From positions 1 to 64,000 of the forward strand of contig NZ_ML660063.1 of assembly GCF_007004665.1 (NCBI RefSeq): DNA of 64,000 nt, in the 5' to 3' direction. A program made the translations under genes and the position numbers. This DNA comes from Denitrobaculum tricleocarpae (GTDB lineage: Bacteria > Pseudomonadota > Alphaproteobacteria > Kiloniellales > Kiloniellaceae). A model generated the notes under the pieces. It was not told where the DNA came from. It ran no database searches and saw only the letters and a program-made list of their open reading frames with translations. Numbering within the stretch: the first letter of the stretch is position 1; each line of letters opens with the position of its first letter. Positions 41,417-48,470 of this stretch are shown here, one piece after another.

Positions 41417-42298
41417 TTACAAGCTCTCTTCCTTCACCCGCCGCTCGCGGTAGAAAGTGTAGATCCCCATGCCGACGACGACGGCGCTGCCGAAGAGGGT
41501 CCAGCCGTCGGGCACCTCGCCGAACAGCAGCAGGCCCAGCAGGATCGCCCAGATCAGCACGGAGTAGCGGAAGGGGGAGACGAAGCTGACCTCGCCCACC
41601 CGCATGGTCATCACGGCGAAGAGGTAGCCGAAGAAGAGGAAGCCCGCGGCACCCGCCAGCATCGCCAGGGCGCTGGTGCTGACCGGCGGCCAGGGCACGG
41701 TCAGGGCGAGCAGGCCGCCGACCAGGGTGAGGACGAAGGAGGAACTGAGCGCGACATAGGCCGAGGGAATGCCGGCGGACAAGCGCCGGGTCGTGAGGTC
41801 CCGCAGCACGATGAAGCCGACCGCCGCGACGGCCCAGAGCGCATAGGCGTTAAAGCCCTCACCACCCGGGCGCACGATGATCAGAACGCCGGTAAAACCC
41901 ACCGCGATCGCCGTATAGCGCCGCCAGCCGACCTTTTCGCCCATGAAAAGCGCGGCGGCCAGGGTGACCGCCAGCGGCAGGGCCTGCAGAATGGCCGTCG
42001 CGTTGGCGATCGGCATGTTGAAGAGCGCGGTCAGGAAACAAAGCGTGCCGCCGACCTCCCCCGCCGCCCGCACCGCCATGATCCCGGCGTCGCGGCGGGA
42101 AGGCAGATAGAAGAGCGCGCCGCGCTGCCGCAGGAGCAGGCCGATCAGCAGCGTCGCGAAGATGCCGCGCAGGAAGATGATCTGATAGAAGCCCAGTTCC
42201 CCCGAGATCAGCTTGATGGTCGCATCGTTCAGCGCAAAGCCCGCCATGGAAATCGACATGAAGAGCGCGCCGCGGACATTGTCGGAAAGGTTATGCAT
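41417..42298 (-). CDS. EamA/DMT family transporter
   Basis: This 293-residue protein has ten hydrophobic helices and two EamA repeats: the first with FYQIIFLRGIFATLLIGLLL and FNMPIANATAILQALPLAVTLAAALF, the second with VSFVSPFRYSVLIWAILLGLLLFGE. It resembles RhaT/S-adenosylmethionine-type exporters of the DMT superfamily, substrate unknown. It is the last GC-rich gene before the A/T-rich SIR2 island begins about 100 bases upstream of its start. Confidence 0.93.
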   Translation of the reverse strand: MHNLSDNVRGALFMSISMAGFALNDATIKLISGELGFYQIIFLRGIFATLLIGLLLRQRGALFYLPSRRDAGIMAVRAAGEVGGTLCFLTALFNMPIANATAILQALPLAVTLAAALFMGEKVGWRRYTAIAVGFTGVLIIVRPGGEGFNAYALWAVAAVGFIVLRDLTTRRLSAGIPSAYVALSSSFVLTLVGGLLALTVPWPPVSTSALAMLAGAAGFLFFGYLFAVMTMRVGEVSFVSPFRYSVLIWAILLGLLLFGEVPDGWTLFGSAVVVGMGIYTFYRERRVKEESL

Positions 42299-42651
42299 AG
42301 GCGGGGGAGACTAACCGATGGGGCGTGCGGTTAGCCATGCTGCTTCTGCATCCCCCTCCCGCTCTGCAGCTGGAGCTTCTCTTATTTTTCGAACAAGGGG
42401 GAAGCTCAACCCGGTCCCGATCACGAGTTGCGTCAATTATCGGGCGTTTGGCTCGATATCCCGTGTAGATGTAGGGCTAGGCAACTTGTTGAAAAAAGCC
42501 GGTGGTATAAATCGAGAGCGAGTGGATGTACGAATTGGGGCTTAGCCTCGTCTCTTCCGCCCTCAGTTTCTATGTGAGATTCGCAAGAAATCTTGAAACG
42601 CCGAATTAAGTCGGTAAGTATGTTGTGGGGAATTTTCTATCTGAGGTTTTG
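42299..42651. other. Left border of the A/T-rich island
   Basis: This 353-base gap is the transition from GC-rich chromosome to the low-GC SIR2 block. No integrase, tRNA or direct repeat was seen at the border. It must contain the promoter of the SIR2 gene; I did not find a confident -35/-10 pair. Confidence 0.45.
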
Positions 42652-43587
42652 ATGTCGGGCGTAAGAGAATTGAGAGAAAAAATTGATGTTCCCGACGAGA
42701 TTAAGCAGGCGGGTTTGGACGGAAGTCTTGTCTTGTTTGTCGGAGCAGGAGTTTCGATGTTGCTAGGTTTGCCGTCTTGGCACGGGCTCGCTGCGTCGGT
42801 GCTGGAGGAGCTCAGGACAAACAAATACCTAAATTACTCTGAGATAGAACAGTTAAAGAATCTTGACCCCAAAAAACAACTCTCTATTGCGTTCCTGATA
42901 GCTAAGCAAAATAAATATAGAATAGAAACAGAAAAATATTTAAATAAAAAAAATAGAAATAGCGCTGTTTACGAGCATTTAAATAAAATCGGATCTTCAT
43001 GCGTAACTACAAATTATGATGAATTTCTTGAGCCAAAATTCGTTAACAAAAAAGATGGGTCTAAAACAGCACCGAAGGCAAATAGAGTATTTGATAGAGA
43101 AAGAATGTACGCGAAATTGCTTAACGAGCCCGGTTCTGTGGTGCACTTGCACGGATGTATCCAAAACGCTGACTCGATGGTGATTACAACTAAAGATTAT
43201 TTAGAGCACTATGATAGCGAAAAGGTACAAAGTTTTTTAGGTGAACTTTTTGAGAAAAAAACAGTTCTTTTTCTGGGCTATGGCCTGGCGGAAGCCGAAA
43301 TTTTGGAAACTATATTGAGAAGGGGGCGTGTTAAAGGCGAAAAGGAGCGCAAGCGTTTTGCAATTCAAGGCTTTTTTCGGAGTGAGTTGCCTTTGTATGA
43401 AAAGTTGAGCGAATATTATGAAAATTCTTTTGGAGTGCATTTGCTAGGTTTTATTCGGGATTTCGAAAACTATGACGGATTAGAGGAAATAATAAGGTCA
43501 TGGGCAGATCAAATTGAAATTCGAGAGCCTCCATTAGTCGAAGACTTGAATTTCATGAATGAGGTGCTTGGGGATGAATGGACTTAA
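42652..43587 (+). CDS. SIR2-domain protein, probable anti-phage NADase
   Basis: From ATG 42652 (GAGG five bases upstream) this 311-residue protein is a SIR2-fold protein. It has the NAD-binding GAGVS at residues 31-35, TTNYD at 119-123, the catalytic histidine in HLHG (165-168), and LFLGYGLAE near residue 255. Stand-alone SIR2 proteins of this type in defence systems degrade NAD when activated by phage. The start ELREKIDVPDEI, then a leucine-rich stretch, suits those families. It has low-GC codon use unlike its neighbours and overlaps the next gene by 14 bases. A GTG at 42625 is a possible alternative start. Confidence 0.9.
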   Translation: MSGVRELREKIDVPDEIKQAGLDGSLVLFVGAGVSMLLGLPSWHGLAASVLEELRTNKYLNYSEIEQLKNLDPKKQLSIAFLIAKQNKYRIETEKYLNKKNRNSAVYEHLNKIGSSCVTTNYDEFLEPKFVNKKDGSKTAPKANRVFDRERMYAKLLNEPGSVVHLHGCIQNADSMVITTKDYLEHYDSEKVQSFLGELFEKKTVLFLGYGLAEAEILETILRRGRVKGEKERKRFAIQGFFRSELPLYEKLSEYYENSFGVHLLGFIRDFENYDGLEEIIRSWADQIEIREPPLVEDLNFMNEVLGDEWT

Positions 43588-46387
43588 TGCTAGCGAGCTT
43601 GATCTTTTAGAGCGTATCGACGCGAAACATGCTCTGCAATCTGTGTTTTTTAGGAAGGCTAAGGGGCTTAAGTGGTTTGTCCCACTTTTTGAACGTGGAT
43701 ATTTTGATAAAACGAGAATTCCAAAACCAAAAAAAGTAAAAGATGGAAAATACATACAAATTCTAAACTGGGATGCTTTAATCTATCTTCTCAATACAGT
43801 CGAAAGTTTATCCGAAAATGAGCTTCGCGAGTTAGCGCCGCAGCTCATGCAGATAATTCGTGATTCAACGGAGTTTTCTCGAATAAACGAATTCAGTAAC
43901 TATAGAGTTTGGTGTCAGCTATCGAAGGTTCTGTCGATTCTCCCTCCTGATTGCATTTCTTTAGACGATATTGAATGCGTAGATTACTGGCTTGATGATA
44001 AGTACGATGCTGGGCTTGTCGCGGAAATTATTGGTGAAAAGTGGCTCATAAGTTTACTCAATGGATCTACAAATCATTCGCTAGCATTGGCTGAAAGGCT
44101 CCTGAGTGTTCTCCTTGCCGTTAATTGCCAAATTAATGAACAAAATGGTAGAGATCAGAAAAATGTATCCTTCCGATATGAGCACTACTACGGAGAAAAA
44201 ATAGTTGAGGTAGTTTCTCCGTTAGTGGGAAGGCGCCTCGGCGAATCTGGTGTTTTAGTATTTCAATCTGGACTCATCGAGGCGGTAGACTTTCTGGATA
44301 ACGATAGTTGGTCTTGTATATGGCAGCCAGCAGTCCAGGAGCATGAGCAAAACAAGCACAAGAATGATGCTGTCAACATATTGGTCGCTGGGTGTCGGGA
44401 CTCCTTGGAAGGGTATCTTGTAGCTGACCCAGAGGGAGCCTTCGAATGTATCGCGTCGATGCTCAAAAGCTCGTATCAGATTCTCAATAGAATCGCCATT
44501 CACACTGCAAATAAACATTTCAATAAATCGATGAAAACGTTCGATTTATTGTTTGATGAAAAGTATTTCAATTCAGGTTATAGGCACGAAATATGGCATT
44601 TTTTGAACATAAACTACGGTGATTTTTCTGAAATTCAAAAACAAAGTGTTTTGAATTTGATTGAAGCTATCCGTGTGCGCGACGATGACGGAGAAGATCT
44701 TGTAAGTGCCACTGCTTATGAGAAATGTAATTGGTTGTCCGCAATCAAAGGGCACAGTTTAAACGAACAAGCTCTTTACAACGAAGCCGTTGCGGTCGCG
44801 GGTAGTGAGCCGGATCACCCAGATTTTTCATACTATGTCTCTGTAGGTTGGGTGACGCACATATCTCCTTATGAAATTGATGAGCTGAAGTCGCTGTCTC
44901 ACGAAGAGCTTATCGAAAAAGTCCGTGGTTATGAAGGTAAGGGCGGATCGTTCTATGAAGGAGAAAGTGTTGAGGGGTTATCCAAAGCAATTGGGCAATT
45001 ATTTAAAGAATCACCACTTCAGTATTACGAGAATCTTGGAAAATTTGCGATTTTAGATAACACGTATGTCTACTCTATTATTGAAGCTTATAGCAGCCTT
45101 TGGGGTGAACGCGCTACGTTACCTTGGGATGATGTTTGGCGATATCTTTTGGAATTTGTAGCAGCGCTTGCAGAGAATGATGCGTTTTGGACCGACGAAA
45201 ACAATACATCTCATGGTCATTACATCGCCAATCGTGATGAGTTGGTTGGTGCGATTGGTCGCCTTCTGGAGGCAGGAGCTAAGTCAGATGACCACGCTTT
45301 TGACCAAAAGTACCATCAGGCGGTCGAAAACATATTGAAACGGATCTTAGAGCGGCAAGTAGGGCGCCAGTTTGATGTTAATAGTGATGCTGTAATGGTG
45401 GCAATAAACAGTCCTCGAGGCCGATGTATCGAGGCGCTTATCAATTTGTCACTTCGGGCTTGCCGATTGGAAGACAAGCGTGGAAATGGAGAGCACATAG
45501 CGGCGTGGAGTCATTTTCAGCCATACTACGAAGAAGAGCTAAAGCGAACAACAATTGGGGAATACGAATTTGCAACTTTAGTAGTGAACTATCTCCCAAA
45601 TTTCCTTTACATGTCAAAGTCTTGGGTTTCTGAAAATTTGAAAGTCATCTTTGGCCAAGATGATCATTTAAGATGGCTCTGTGCAATGCAGGGGTATTGT
45701 TATGTGAATCAAGTGTATCAAGAAGTTTATGAGCATCTAAAAGAGAGTAATTCTTTATTTAGAGCACTCGATGAAGATGTTTTAAGTTCGGAAGTTAAGA
45801 GGAAGTTAATACAAAATATTGCGTTGGCTTATTTGAGTGATTTTGAGGGCGTAGATGATAATGATAGTTCGATCAACATTTTGCTAGCTAGACAAGATGT
45901 TGAGGAGTTGTCACATCTTATTTGGTTTATTTGGACCTACCACAAGAAAAATGACATCGAAACATCGCCTAAAGTCATCCGCCTGTGGTTAAGGATGATG
46001 CAAATAGTCAATCCATCATCGGAGCAAGGGCGAGTATTTGCGTCTAATTTATGTTTGTGGTCAGTGTACGTTGACTCAATAGATGAACAGACGAGAAGAC
46101 TTCTCATGGCTGTGGCACCGTACGCCGAGGAGGCCTACAATTCTCACGAGTTCATCGAGAATTTGGCGAGGTTGAGCAACAAGCAACCGCTCGAAGTTAA
46201 CAAGATATGGAGCGAGATTCTCGAGCGATATACACCGACTTATCCCGAAAAAGATATTCGCCGCATGCTATCAAACTTGGTTGCCGTAGGAGCGGAGGGG
46301 CAACGAGAAGCACGTGATATTGTTAGCAAATATTTAAAAAACGGAGTTGAAGGACCGGCATTGTGGCTAAAGGACATCGATGTGTGA
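43574..46387 (+). CDS. Large helical (HEAT-like) partner of the SIR2 protein
   Basis: From ATG 43574 this is a 937-residue, all-helical protein with no Walker, nuclease or membrane motif. The N-terminal KGLKWFVPLFERGYFDKTRIPKPKK and W..L.YL segment resembles the region that follows SIR2 or NTPase domains in large defence proteins. The C-terminal part (IVNPSSEQGRVFASNLCLWSVYVDSI, and IRRMLSNLVAVGAEGQREARDIVSKYL) resembles the DUF4020-like tail of SIR2 fusions; that likeness is from memory and needs a profile search. It probably senses phage and triggers the SIR2 effector. Its start lies inside the end of the SIR2 gene, in another frame. Confidence 0.75.
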   Translation: MNGLNASELDLLERIDAKHALQSVFFRKAKGLKWFVPLFERGYFDKTRIPKPKKVKDGKYIQILNWDALIYLLNTVESLSENELRELAPQLMQIIRDSTEFSRINEFSNYRVWCQLSKVLSILPPDCISLDDIECVDYWLDDKYDAGLVAEIIGEKWLISLLNGSTNHSLALAERLLSVLLAVNCQINEQNGRDQKNVSFRYEHYYGEKIVEVVSPLVGRRLGESGVLVFQSGLIEAVDFLDNDSWSCIWQPAVQEHEQNKHKNDAVNILVAGCRDSLEGYLVADPEGAFECIASMLKSSYQILNRIAIHTANKHFNKSMKTFDLLFDEKYFNSGYRHEIWHFLNINYGDFSEIQKQSVLNLIEAIRVRDDDGEDLVSATAYEKCNWLSAIKGHSLNEQALYNEAVAVAGSEPDHPDFSYYVSVGWVTHISPYEIDELKSLSHEELIEKVRGYEGKGGSFYEGESVEGLSKAIGQLFKESPLQYYENLGKFAILDNTYVYSIIEAYSSLWGERATLPWDDVWRYLLEFVAALAENDAFWTDENNTSHGHYIANRDELVGAIGRLLEAGAKSDDHAFDQKYHQAVENILKRILERQVGRQFDVNSDAVMVAINSPRGRCIEALINLSLRACRLEDKRGNGEHIAAWSHFQPYYEEELKRTTIGEYEFATLVVNYLPNFLYMSKSWVSENLKVIFGQDDHLRWLCAMQGYCYVNQVYQEVYEHLKESNSLFRALDEDVLSSEVKRKLIQNIALAYLSDFEGVDDNDSSINILLARQDVEELSHLIWFIWTYHKKNDIETSPKVIRLWLRMMQIVNPSSEQGRVFASNLCLWSVYVDSIDEQTRRLLMAVAPYAEEAYNSHEFIENLARLSNKQPLEVNKIWSEILERYTPTYPEKDIRRMLSNLVAVGAEGQREARDIVSKYLKNGVEGPALWLKDIDV

Positions 46388-46508
46388 TGTTTTTGAGAGA
46401 GCGATGCGCGATATTCTTGGACTCTAGATGTAGCTCAAACTGCTTAGTTAAAGCACATAACCTCGGTCTATTTTTTGCCATTGAACCGCCTTAACAAGGA
46501 GGGGGCGC

Positions 46509-46526
46509 GGGGGAACGTGTTCCCCC
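46509..46526. terminator. Hairpin at the right border of the island
   Basis: GGGGGAAC (46509-46516) pairs with GTTCCCCC (46519-46526) 122 bases after the HEAT-like gene and 20 bases before the converging mhaB stop. It is very strong but has no T-run. It may end transcription from both sides. Confidence 0.5.
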
Positions 46527-46545
46527 GAATCAATTGCCCAGTTCC

Positions 46546-46743
46546 CTACAAACCCTTCCCTGCCGCTTCCACCGCCTCCGCAATAACCCCTTCATCCCCG
46601 ATGTGGTTCGTCAGCAGCAGCACCAGCCGGCTGTTGAAGGCTTGGCTCTGTTCCGGCGACAGGTCCCGGTGCGCATCGATCAGGACCTGATAGATATCGT
46701 CCGGGCGGGTGAGGCGGGGATCGCTCTTCAACTGCGTGCTCAT
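46546..46743 (-). CDS. mhaB: DUF2783 small protein, MhaB-like coupling subunit
   Basis: This 65-residue protein has the DUF2783 pattern (PDDIYQVLIDAHRDLSPEQSQAFNSRLVLLLTNHIGDEGVI). Its start overlaps the stop of the flavin hydroxylase gene by four bases. In Pseudomonas putida U a small coupling protein of this size (MhaB) is needed with the flavoprotein MhaA for 3-hydroxyphenylacetate 6-hydroxylation; the pairing and the homogentisate genes upstream suggest the same role. The symbol is by analogy. Confidence 0.7.
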   Translation of the reverse strand: MSTQLKSDPRLTRPDDIYQVLIDAHRDLSPEQSQAFNSRLVLLLTNHIGDEGVIAEAVEAAGKGL

Positions 46744-48470
46744 GCGGCGGTTCCTTCTGTTGCGGCCTCGGCATCGGCAGCCGCCAGACCTTTCCCCAAT
46801 GCCCGGTGCAGCGCGCCGCGGATCGCCTGGGGGTCGGCTTCGCGCCAGCGGGCGGTGACGTGCTGGTCGGGGCGGATGAGATACAGACTGCCGGGGCGGG
46901 CGTCGTAGCGGGCTTCGGTCATGAGCTGTTCGCTGTCGATGAGCGCGCCTGCCGGGGCTTTGCTTCCGGGCGGGAAGATGGGGACAAGGCGCACGGGGAC
47001 CTCTAACCCGGCCAGGGTCTCGCGCAGCTGGGCGAGGCTGTCTTCGGTCTCATCCGCGCGGGCGAAGTAGAGGCCGCAGAACTCGCCGCTCAGGTGGTGC
47101 AGCAGCCAGCTTTCACGGCCCTCCGCCGTGGTCACCGGGGCGTCGGCGCAGGGCGCGCCCGGTACCATCGCACCAATGAAACCCAGACTGTCCGGCGAGT
47201 TCAGGGCGGACTCGCTGTAGGTCGAGGGCAGGGACAGCCGTCCGCTGTTCACCAGACGCCGGGCGAAGTCATGATCCCTTGCAAGCTCCAGCGTCGCATC
47301 CCGAAAGGCGCGGCTGGCGGCGCTTTTGGGGGTGATGAAGTCGGTGCTGCGGGTGGAGTTCAGGATGTTTTCGTCGGCGGCGTAGGCGCGCTCGGCGTGG
47401 TAGCTTTCCAGCAGGCTTTCCGGCGCCTTGCCGGCCAGCACCAGATCCAGTTTCCAGATCAGGTTGTCGATGTCCTGCAGGCCGCTGTTGGCGCCGCGCG
47501 CGCCGAAAGGCGAGACCTGGTGGGCGGAATCGCCGATGAAGAAGATGCGGCCGTGGCGGAATTTTTCCAGGCGGCGGCATTGGAAGGTGTAGACGCTGAC
47601 CCACTCCAGCTCGAACTCGACGTCATCGCCCAGCATGGCCTTCAGGCGCGGGATGACGTTTTCGGGTTTGCGTTCTTCCTCCGGGTCGGCGTCCCAGCCG
47701 AGTTGCAGGTCGATGCGCCAGACGTCGTCGGGCTGTTTGTGCAGCAGGGCGGACTGCCCCTTGTTGAAGGGCGGGTCGAACCAGAACCAGCGCTCGGTCG
47801 GGAAGTCGGCCTTCATGATCACGTCGGCGATCAGGAAGCGGTCCTTGAAGACCTGGCCCTTGAAGTCGAGGCCGAGCAGGCGGCGGGTGGCGCTGCGCGC
47901 GCCGTCGGCGGCCAGCATATAGTCGGCGGCCAGACGGTACTCGCCGTCCGGGGTCTCCAGGATCAGGGTCACGCCGTCTTCCCGATTCTCCACACCGACC
48001 AGCTTGTTGTTCCAGCGCAGGTCGATCTCGGGATGCTTCAGGACTTCGCGGACGGTGAAGGCTTCGAAGTGGTACTGCTGCAGATTGATGAAGGCGGGCA
48101 TGCGGTGGCCTTCTTCAATCTGCAGCAGGTCGAAGGCGTAGAGCTGTTCCTCGCCGAAGAAGACCTTGCCCTTCTTCCAGGTCACGCCCTTTTCCACCAG
48201 CGCATCCCCGACACCCAGCCGGTCCATGATCTCCAGCGACCGCTTCGCCCAGCAGATCGCGCGCGACCCGGTACTGACCGTGTTGTCGTCGTCCAGCACG
48301 ACCACTTTGCGGCCCCGTTGGGCGAGGTCGAGCGCGGCGGCGAGCCCGACCGGTCCTGCGCCGATGATCACCACCGGATGGCGCACGGGTGTCGTGGCGG
48401 ACTGATCCGGCGAAGGTTGGTAGGTGAAATCGGTTGCTGCTGAAGCTGTGTCTGTTGAACCCGAGTTCAT
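46740..48470 (-). CDS. mhaA: FAD-dependent aromatic hydroxylase, probable 3-hydroxyphenylacetate 6-hydroxylase
   Basis: This 576-residue flavoprotein has the N-terminal FAD motif VIIGAGPVGLAAALDLAQRG, the DG motif in LAADGARSATRRLLG and the GD motif FIGDSAHQVSPFGARGANSGLQD, as in class A aromatic monooxygenases of the MhpA type. It is the penultimate gene of the homogentisate cluster and is followed by a DUF2783 gene. This fits MhaA, which makes homogentisate from 3-hydroxyphenylacetate using NADH and oxygen. A different hydroxyaromatic substrate is possible; the assignment rests on neighbourhood and family. Confidence 0.75.
   Translation of the reverse strand: MNSGSTDTASAATDFTYQPSPDQSATTPVRHPVVIIGAGPVGLAAALDLAQRGRKVVVLDDDNTVSTGSRAICWAKRSLEIMDRLGVGDALVEKGVTWKKGKVFFGEEQLYAFDLLQIEEGHRMPAFINLQQYHFEAFTVREVLKHPEIDLRWNNKLVGVENREDGVTLILETPDGEYRLAADYMLAADGARSATRRLLGLDFKGQVFKDRFLIADVIMKADFPTERWFWFDPPFNKGQSALLHKQPDDVWRIDLQLGWDADPEEERKPENVIPRLKAMLGDDVEFELEWVSVYTFQCRRLEKFRHGRIFFIGDSAHQVSPFGARGANSGLQDIDNLIWKLDLVLAGKAPESLLESYHAERAYAADENILNSTRSTDFITPKSAASRAFRDATLELARDHDFARRLVNSGRLSLPSTYSESALNSPDSLGFIGAMVPGAPCADAPVTTAEGRESWLLHHLSGEFCGLYFARADETEDSLAQLRETLAGLEVPVRLVPIFPPGSKAPAGALIDSEQLMTEARYDARPGSLYLIRPDQHVTARWREADPQAIRGALHRALGKGLAAADAEAATEGTAA

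Follow-up and report, generated by a model that had tools for sequence, protein, structure and literature searches.

A pair of overlapping genes in a 64,000-nucleotide stretch of the alphaproteobacterium Denitrobaculum tricleocarpae (contig NZ_ML660063.1, positions 1 to 64,000; hereafter, the window) probably constitutes an anti-phage system of the Dsr1 type divided into two chains, a SIR2 protein (P0001) acting as an effector that hydrolyses nicotinamide adenine dinucleotide (an NADase, from NAD) and a large partner (P0002) acting as a sensor. Dsr1 is a bacterial anti-phage protein, usually made as one chain, which is thought to sense infection and destroy NAD. Judged by homology, the pair is a split Dsr1 and not an unrelated SIR2-HEAT system, because both proteins tile a Dsr1 profile and align collinearly with single-chain Dsr1.

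In the PADLOC collection of defence profiles, both proteins match the Dsr1 profile PDLC04166 (1227 positions), P0001 covering positions 11-301 (E value 1.6e-57) and P0002 positions 309-1215 (6.2e-129), so that they tile the profile in order and almost without a gap (301/309). They are the sole two matches to this profile in their own genome, and P0002 matches nothing in PADLOC up to E 1 besides Dsr1. Kinship to canonical Dsr1 (NF041818; PDLC02183 and PDLC04167 in PADLOC) is collinear for both parts but remote: the two proteins score 44 and 46.2 bits with NF041818 against a curated cut-off of 1400, a weak match below equivalog membership, and just three of the eight large proteins described below match that model at E 0.01. 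Profile-profile comparisons were made with alignments of the eight large proteins, two of them partial (A5), of the SIR2 proteins (A6), and of 12 single-chain Dsr1 proteins (A7, comprising 12 of the 13 frames longer than 1150 amino acids, with one contig-edge frame left out). Columns 13-763 of A5 aligned with the Dsr1 C-terminal region at columns 325-1079 of A7 (probability 98.6), and columns 7-268 of A6 with columns 7-275 of A7 (probability 99.2). On these alignments, the gene order is that of a Dsr1 cut once. The PDLC04166 profile describes one chain, whereas two frames are found in the window and in all seven relatives, and the pair is assigned as a split variant within the PDLC04166 branch, not as ordinary Dsr1. 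The suggestion in the initial annotation that the split form may be a distinct system type holds for its two-gene form; the pair itself belongs to the known Dsr1 family, as a branch with the protein divided in two, and is not a new SIR2-HEAT system.

As far as its sequence indicates, P0001 carries the SIR2 fold signature with the catalytic asparagine and histidine. The three motifs initially read in it, GAGVS (approximately residues 31-35), TTNYD (119-123), and HLHG (165-168), were all located in the frame, and of the two Pfam families proposed for checking, SIR2_2 was matched (2.1e-21), whereas DUF4020 is absent from the match list. Its closest sequence in PDB is KomC (5.4e-12). Residues N121 and H167 are invariant across eight SIR2 relatives and align with N133 and H171 of DSR2 from Bacillus subtilis (positions counted by hand on the alignment), residues at which mutation reduces or eliminates NADase activity according to excerpts of two studies (PMC10981675, PMC11087589). 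For P0002, whose 937-residue length and overlap with the SIR2 gene were read correctly at the outset, no Pfam family exceeded the cut-off, the Pfam listing up to E 1 contained no HEAT family, and no PDB sequence matched up to E 1, though DSR2 chains are in the set searched. These searches did not confirm the initial description of P0002 as helical and HEAT-like, and it may still resemble DSR2 in fold.

Relatives were gathered by a plasmid search, a genome-contig scan, and whole-genome searches, which together yielded eight loci with both genes side by side, the window and seven others, all of them split. The large protein thus falls in a defence family and its gene adjoins the SIR2 gene wherever the pair was found, in agreement with the two-gene SIR2-plus-partner module first proposed and contrary to the outcome that was to refute it. 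The seven other loci belong to Vibrio coralliilyticus plasmid pOCN014 (L003), for which RefSeq has two separate proteins; an uncultured Vibrio (L009), 98.7% and 96.2% identical to L003; Dasania (L007) and a Gallionellaceae bin (L011, truncated where its contig stops), in both of which a GTG start was chosen by the analyst; an uncultured Pseudomonadales bacterium (L008); an alphaproteobacterium (L014); and Nitrosomonas oligotropha (L010), in which the large gene ends early (L010 7986-9304), beside an apparent insertion-sequence integrase frame. Six pairs are complete; the other two lack part of the large gene. The break lies at one common point in all eight loci, which represent at least seven distinct sources, the two Vibrio copies being near-identical. 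The phase of the overlap is identical in every locus and the start of the large gene is homologous across them, the window SIR2 gene being two codons longer than that of L008. A GAGGT motif stands at the same place before the large-gene start in six of the eight, and both Vibrio copies have AGGAT. The ratio of nonsynonymous to synonymous substitution rates (dN/dS) is 0.037 for the SIR2 gene and 0.106 for the large gene between L007 and L008 (rough values, with dS above 1), and 0.073 and 0.291, respectively, between L003 and L009. In each of these two comparisons purifying selection acts on both genes, more weakly on the large gene, whose faster evolution would fit a sensor engaged in an arms race. 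The distances of the SIR2 gene and the large gene correlate at 0.98 (15 non-independent pairs from six loci).

Table 1. Features of the window that bear on the split pair and its surroundings
Feature	Position	Strand	Remark
SIR2 gene (P0001), presumed NADase effector	42652..43587	+	311 amino acids; SIR2_2 and PDLC04166 matches
Large gene (P0002), separate chain putatively equivalent to the Dsr1 C-terminal region, presumed sensor	43574..46387	+	937 amino acids
Overlap between the end of SIR2 and the beginning of the large gene	43574..43587	+	14 nucleotides (8 in the seven other loci)
GAGGTG, Shine-Dalgarno-like, within the SIR2 3' end, upstream of the large-gene start	43561..43566	+	
GAGGT, Shine-Dalgarno-like, upstream of the SIR2 start	42643..42647	+	
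AT-rich cargo	42425..46499		41.7% G+C; approximate borders: left 42387-42424, right 46500-46543
Left flank gene of hotspot	41417..42298	-	92-97% identical proteins in three congeners; which we take by eye to be a DMT/EamA-type transporter
Right flank gene of hotspot	46740..48470	-	Flanking DNA conserved in three congeners; presumably, by eye, an FAD-dependent monooxygenase

As a control, NF041818 was searched in 359 genomes of the phylum and gave matches at E 1e-30 or better in 23. By our reading of the table of matches, 18 of these hold copies spanning both parts, the remaining five having fragments or single parts only. Sixteen of the 18 end-to-end copies form one stop-free frame of 1202-1336 amino acids (that of G160 begins at a contig edge), in agreement with the statement in the initial annotation that in relatives the SIR2 part and the part it calls helical form one polypeptide. 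The copy in G412 is a single frame with two internal stops, and that in G321 (L039 75-3900) is divided between two frames (about 876 and 400 amino acids) with an 8-nucleotide overlap, the break lying inside the C-terminal region; this is either another type of split or recent damage. Canonical Dsr1 is therefore normally a single chain (16 of 18), and members of the PDLC04166 branch are normally encoded by two genes (eight of eight, two of them near-identical).

Unsplit members of that branch may exist, the profile itself being one chain; none appeared among the genomes drawn, a weak absence given how rare the branch is. The draws, which overlap one another, gave matches in 2 of 23 genomes at E 0.001 and 2 of 61 at E 1e-20 (in both cases the own genome and a SIR2-only match in the congener G002), in 2 of 398 at E 1e-20 (own, and SIR2-only in G400), and, at E 1e-30, in 2 of 385 (own and G1109), 1 of 25 (G1109), 1 of 349 (own), and 0 of 369, the last not being proof of absence. 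The genome-contig scan confirmed five of 50 candidate stretches when alignment A1 was used and none with P0002 alone. On plasmids, P0001 matched 108 records, three of which cover 80% or more of the query at a single site, and those besides the Vibrio pair are more distant SIR2 proteins. Neither the window pair nor the Vibrio pair had a DNA match in the E. coli genomes searched. A viral origin of the pair was considered and rejected, as no P0002 relative was found in phage records or confirmed in four viral-contig scans; P0001 had one weak match in phage records (27% identity). No title or abstract describing a split Dsr1 was found in a literature search that left the founding Dsr1 papers outside its range, and novelty is not claimed.

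The pair may operate as follows. The first gene would give rise to a free SIR2-fold NADase and the second, from its overlapping start, to a separate chain corresponding to the Dsr1 C-terminal region; because this start overlaps the SIR2 gene, both proteins are probably made together. The large protein would form a complex with SIR2 that keeps the enzyme inactive, and binding of a phage product to the large protein would release SIR2, which would then destroy NAD and thereby stop the infection. Complex formation, a sensing role of P0002, hydrolysis of NAD, and protection against phages are inferred; the assignment of sensing to the large partner and of NAD depletion to SIR2, already present in the initial annotation, leans on analogy with DSR2. 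A two-chain DSR is the most likely arrangement because the split falls near the boundary between the SIR2 and C-terminal domains of DSR2, in which the C-terminal domain binds the trigger. In the excerpted account of DSR2 (PMC10973363), the SIR2 domain comprises residues 1-303 and the C-terminal domain residues 304-1005; the phage tail tube protein binds to the isolated C-terminal domain and does not activate the isolated SIR2 domain. A passage of a review describes DSR1 as stopping phage replication without cell death (PMC10952713). Several points weigh against this interpretation: the kinship to canonical Dsr1 is remote in sequence (44 and 46 bits against 1400), P0002 has no sequence match in PDB, and the distance correlation comes from few and related loci.

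The simplest competing explanation is that the split is an accident, namely a frameshift or a sequencing or assembly error in an ordinary single-chain Dsr1, as might be suspected from the single-chain nature of the described relatives, the near-gapless abutment of the two parts on PDLC04166, and the in-frame stops of the G412 copy. This explanation, or that of a pseudogene, is very unlikely because all eight pairs break at the same point; each has a start codon there, six have the GAGGT motif, RefSeq records the V. coralliilyticus pair as two proteins, and purifying selection acts on both frames in two pairs. Conservation of the overlap and its phase in all eight loci might instead reflect programmed frameshifting that joins the two frames, with some full-length Dsr1 still being made. 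We regard this as improbable, given that a separate start codon is present for every large gene, in most cases together with a GAGGT, and that the phase is +1 (or -2) and not the common -1, no systematic search for slippery sites having been made; programmed -1 frameshifting in particular was rejected on phase.

Two further possibilities accept two separate proteins and differ on what they do. Two overlapping genes, with copies on a plasmid, beside integrases, and beside a CRISPR-transposon module, would suit a toxin-antitoxin-like stability module in which a poisonous SIR2 protein is kept in check by the large protein, and which maintains mobile elements rather than defending against phages. 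Usual antitoxins are unlike a 937-residue partner encoded by the second gene, and the SIR2-first order, the homology to the defence protein Dsr1, and the occupation of the same genomic slot by defence genes in two congeners make this reading an outside chance. It is also conceivable that the SIR2 protein produces or detects a signal derived from NAD rather than emptying the NAD pool, as the SIR2 domain of Thoeris ThsA and the match of P0001 to ThsA profiles in PADLOC (2.4e-17) might suggest; with Dsr1 as the best match and no SLOG or other ligand-binding domain seen in the Pfam search, we give this little credence. A split Dsr1-type defence system is the preferred reading.

Several other SIR2 systems, namely SIR2-HerA (Nezha), Kongming (KomC), SIR2-APAZ/Argonaute, and Thoeris, include cases in which SIR2 and its partner lie on separate chains, the partners being proteins other than P0002. 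For Nezha, this make-up follows part of a published account (PMC11559045). Canonical Dsr1 is treated as a single-gene system in the excerpted DSR2 study (PMC10973363), and DSR2 itself shares with the pair a SIR2 part with aligned asparagine and histidine followed by a large C-terminal domain, but is one chain, and its PDB chains show no sequence match to P0002. In single-chain DSRs, sensor and effector are inseparable unless the protein is cut, whereas a natural split lets sensing by the C-terminal region alone, gating of the NADase, and swapping of sensors be tested. Search rules built on a single gene may also miss split pairs.

The AT-rich island on which the pair lies is a hotspot with variable cargo, because the same flanks enclose other AT-rich DNA in three congeners (G001-G003). 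The pair has a guanine-plus-cytosine (G+C) content of 41.4% versus 60.3% elsewhere in the window, and the nine G/C bases at 42901-42960 were counted again, in accordance with the strong A/T bias noted at first. The flanking DNA is kept in the congeners, with left blocks 87-93% identical up to 42387-42424 and right blocks 87-91% identical from 46500-46543, between which G001, G002, and G003 carry 4.2, 2.8, and 3.5 kilobases at 42.5, 44.7, and 44.7% G+C. A PADLOC scan covered 10 open reading frames of these three cargoes (L026, L027, L028). In G003, an ATPase matches PDC-M01A (8.3e-211) and PtuA of Septu (4.1e-197), and its partner, HNH-like by eye with no Pfam match, matches PDC-M01B (1.1e-104); in G001, a reverse transcriptase (DRT) matches Drt6 (3.7e-154). 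The four scanned frames of G002 and the three further ones of G001 and G003 had no PADLOC match. The slot is thus filled differently in each of the four genomes, three of which, counting the window, carry recognisable defence genes there, and the recent transfer initially proposed is supported to the extent that the module was probably acquired. We consider exchange of cargo through recombination of the flanks likely. Insertion by an integrase or at a tRNA was rejected, as no integrase was seen in the window's island and the two tRNAs are about 5.5 kilobases away. Direct and inverted repeats straddle the island, the best being a 23-nucleotide inverted pair (41917-41939 and 47302-47324, 87%); as they sit inside flanking genes, they are taken for chance. 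Scans gave 9 promoters versus 8.1 expected and 3 terminators versus 4.0 expected, which is no signal.

Just right of the island border, the window has an inverted repeat, GGGGGAAC-GT-GTTCCCCC (46509-46526), which recurs with one change each in G003 and G002 and is not present in G001. The interval between the two flank genes is a place to seek more defence genes in the genus, and the small frames of the G002 cargo without a PADLOC match are candidate new ones. Elsewhere in G002 (L015 3840-9138) there is another SIR2 protein, whose neighbours we take by eye to be PAPS-reductase-type, DUF262-type, and GHKL-type proteins.

Relatives of the pair occur in mobile settings. The V. coralliilyticus pair is plasmid-borne; tyrosine integrases lie near the pairs of L014 (3960-11916) and L008 (11341-15890), the latter also with a Phage_GPA replication protein, and both pairs may ride phage-satellite-like elements. 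In the uncultured Vibrio (L009 1-11942), the pair adjoins TniQ and Csy2, Csy3, and Csy4, and is probably cargo of a type I-F CRISPR-associated transposon, presumably of subtype I-F3. A plasmid protein of 1510 amino acids from the haloarchaeon Natronorubrum bangense (L004 2580-7112) matches PDLC04166 over 417-1213 (8.8e-37), while its N-terminal half differs, being annotated as ATP-binding and weakly like PDC-M54A and PtuA, with nothing above cut-off in Pfam. This protein fits the idea, drawn from sequence similarity, that the Dsr1 C-terminal region is a portable module. Tentatively, and with somewhat more doubt than confidence, a Dsr1 lineage in Pseudomonadota could be an obligate two-protein system: a separate sensor chain would hold a free SIR2 NADase and let it go, and the two parts would be exchangeable. 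The Natronorubrum protein suggests that the sensor is portable and can act with unrelated effectors. Adjoining the Vibrio plasmid pair (L003 2229-5242) are a HerA-like DUF87 ATPase (4.8e-17) and another protein that matches SIR2_2 weakly, below cut-off (0.0008); the two perhaps form a SIR2-HerA system.

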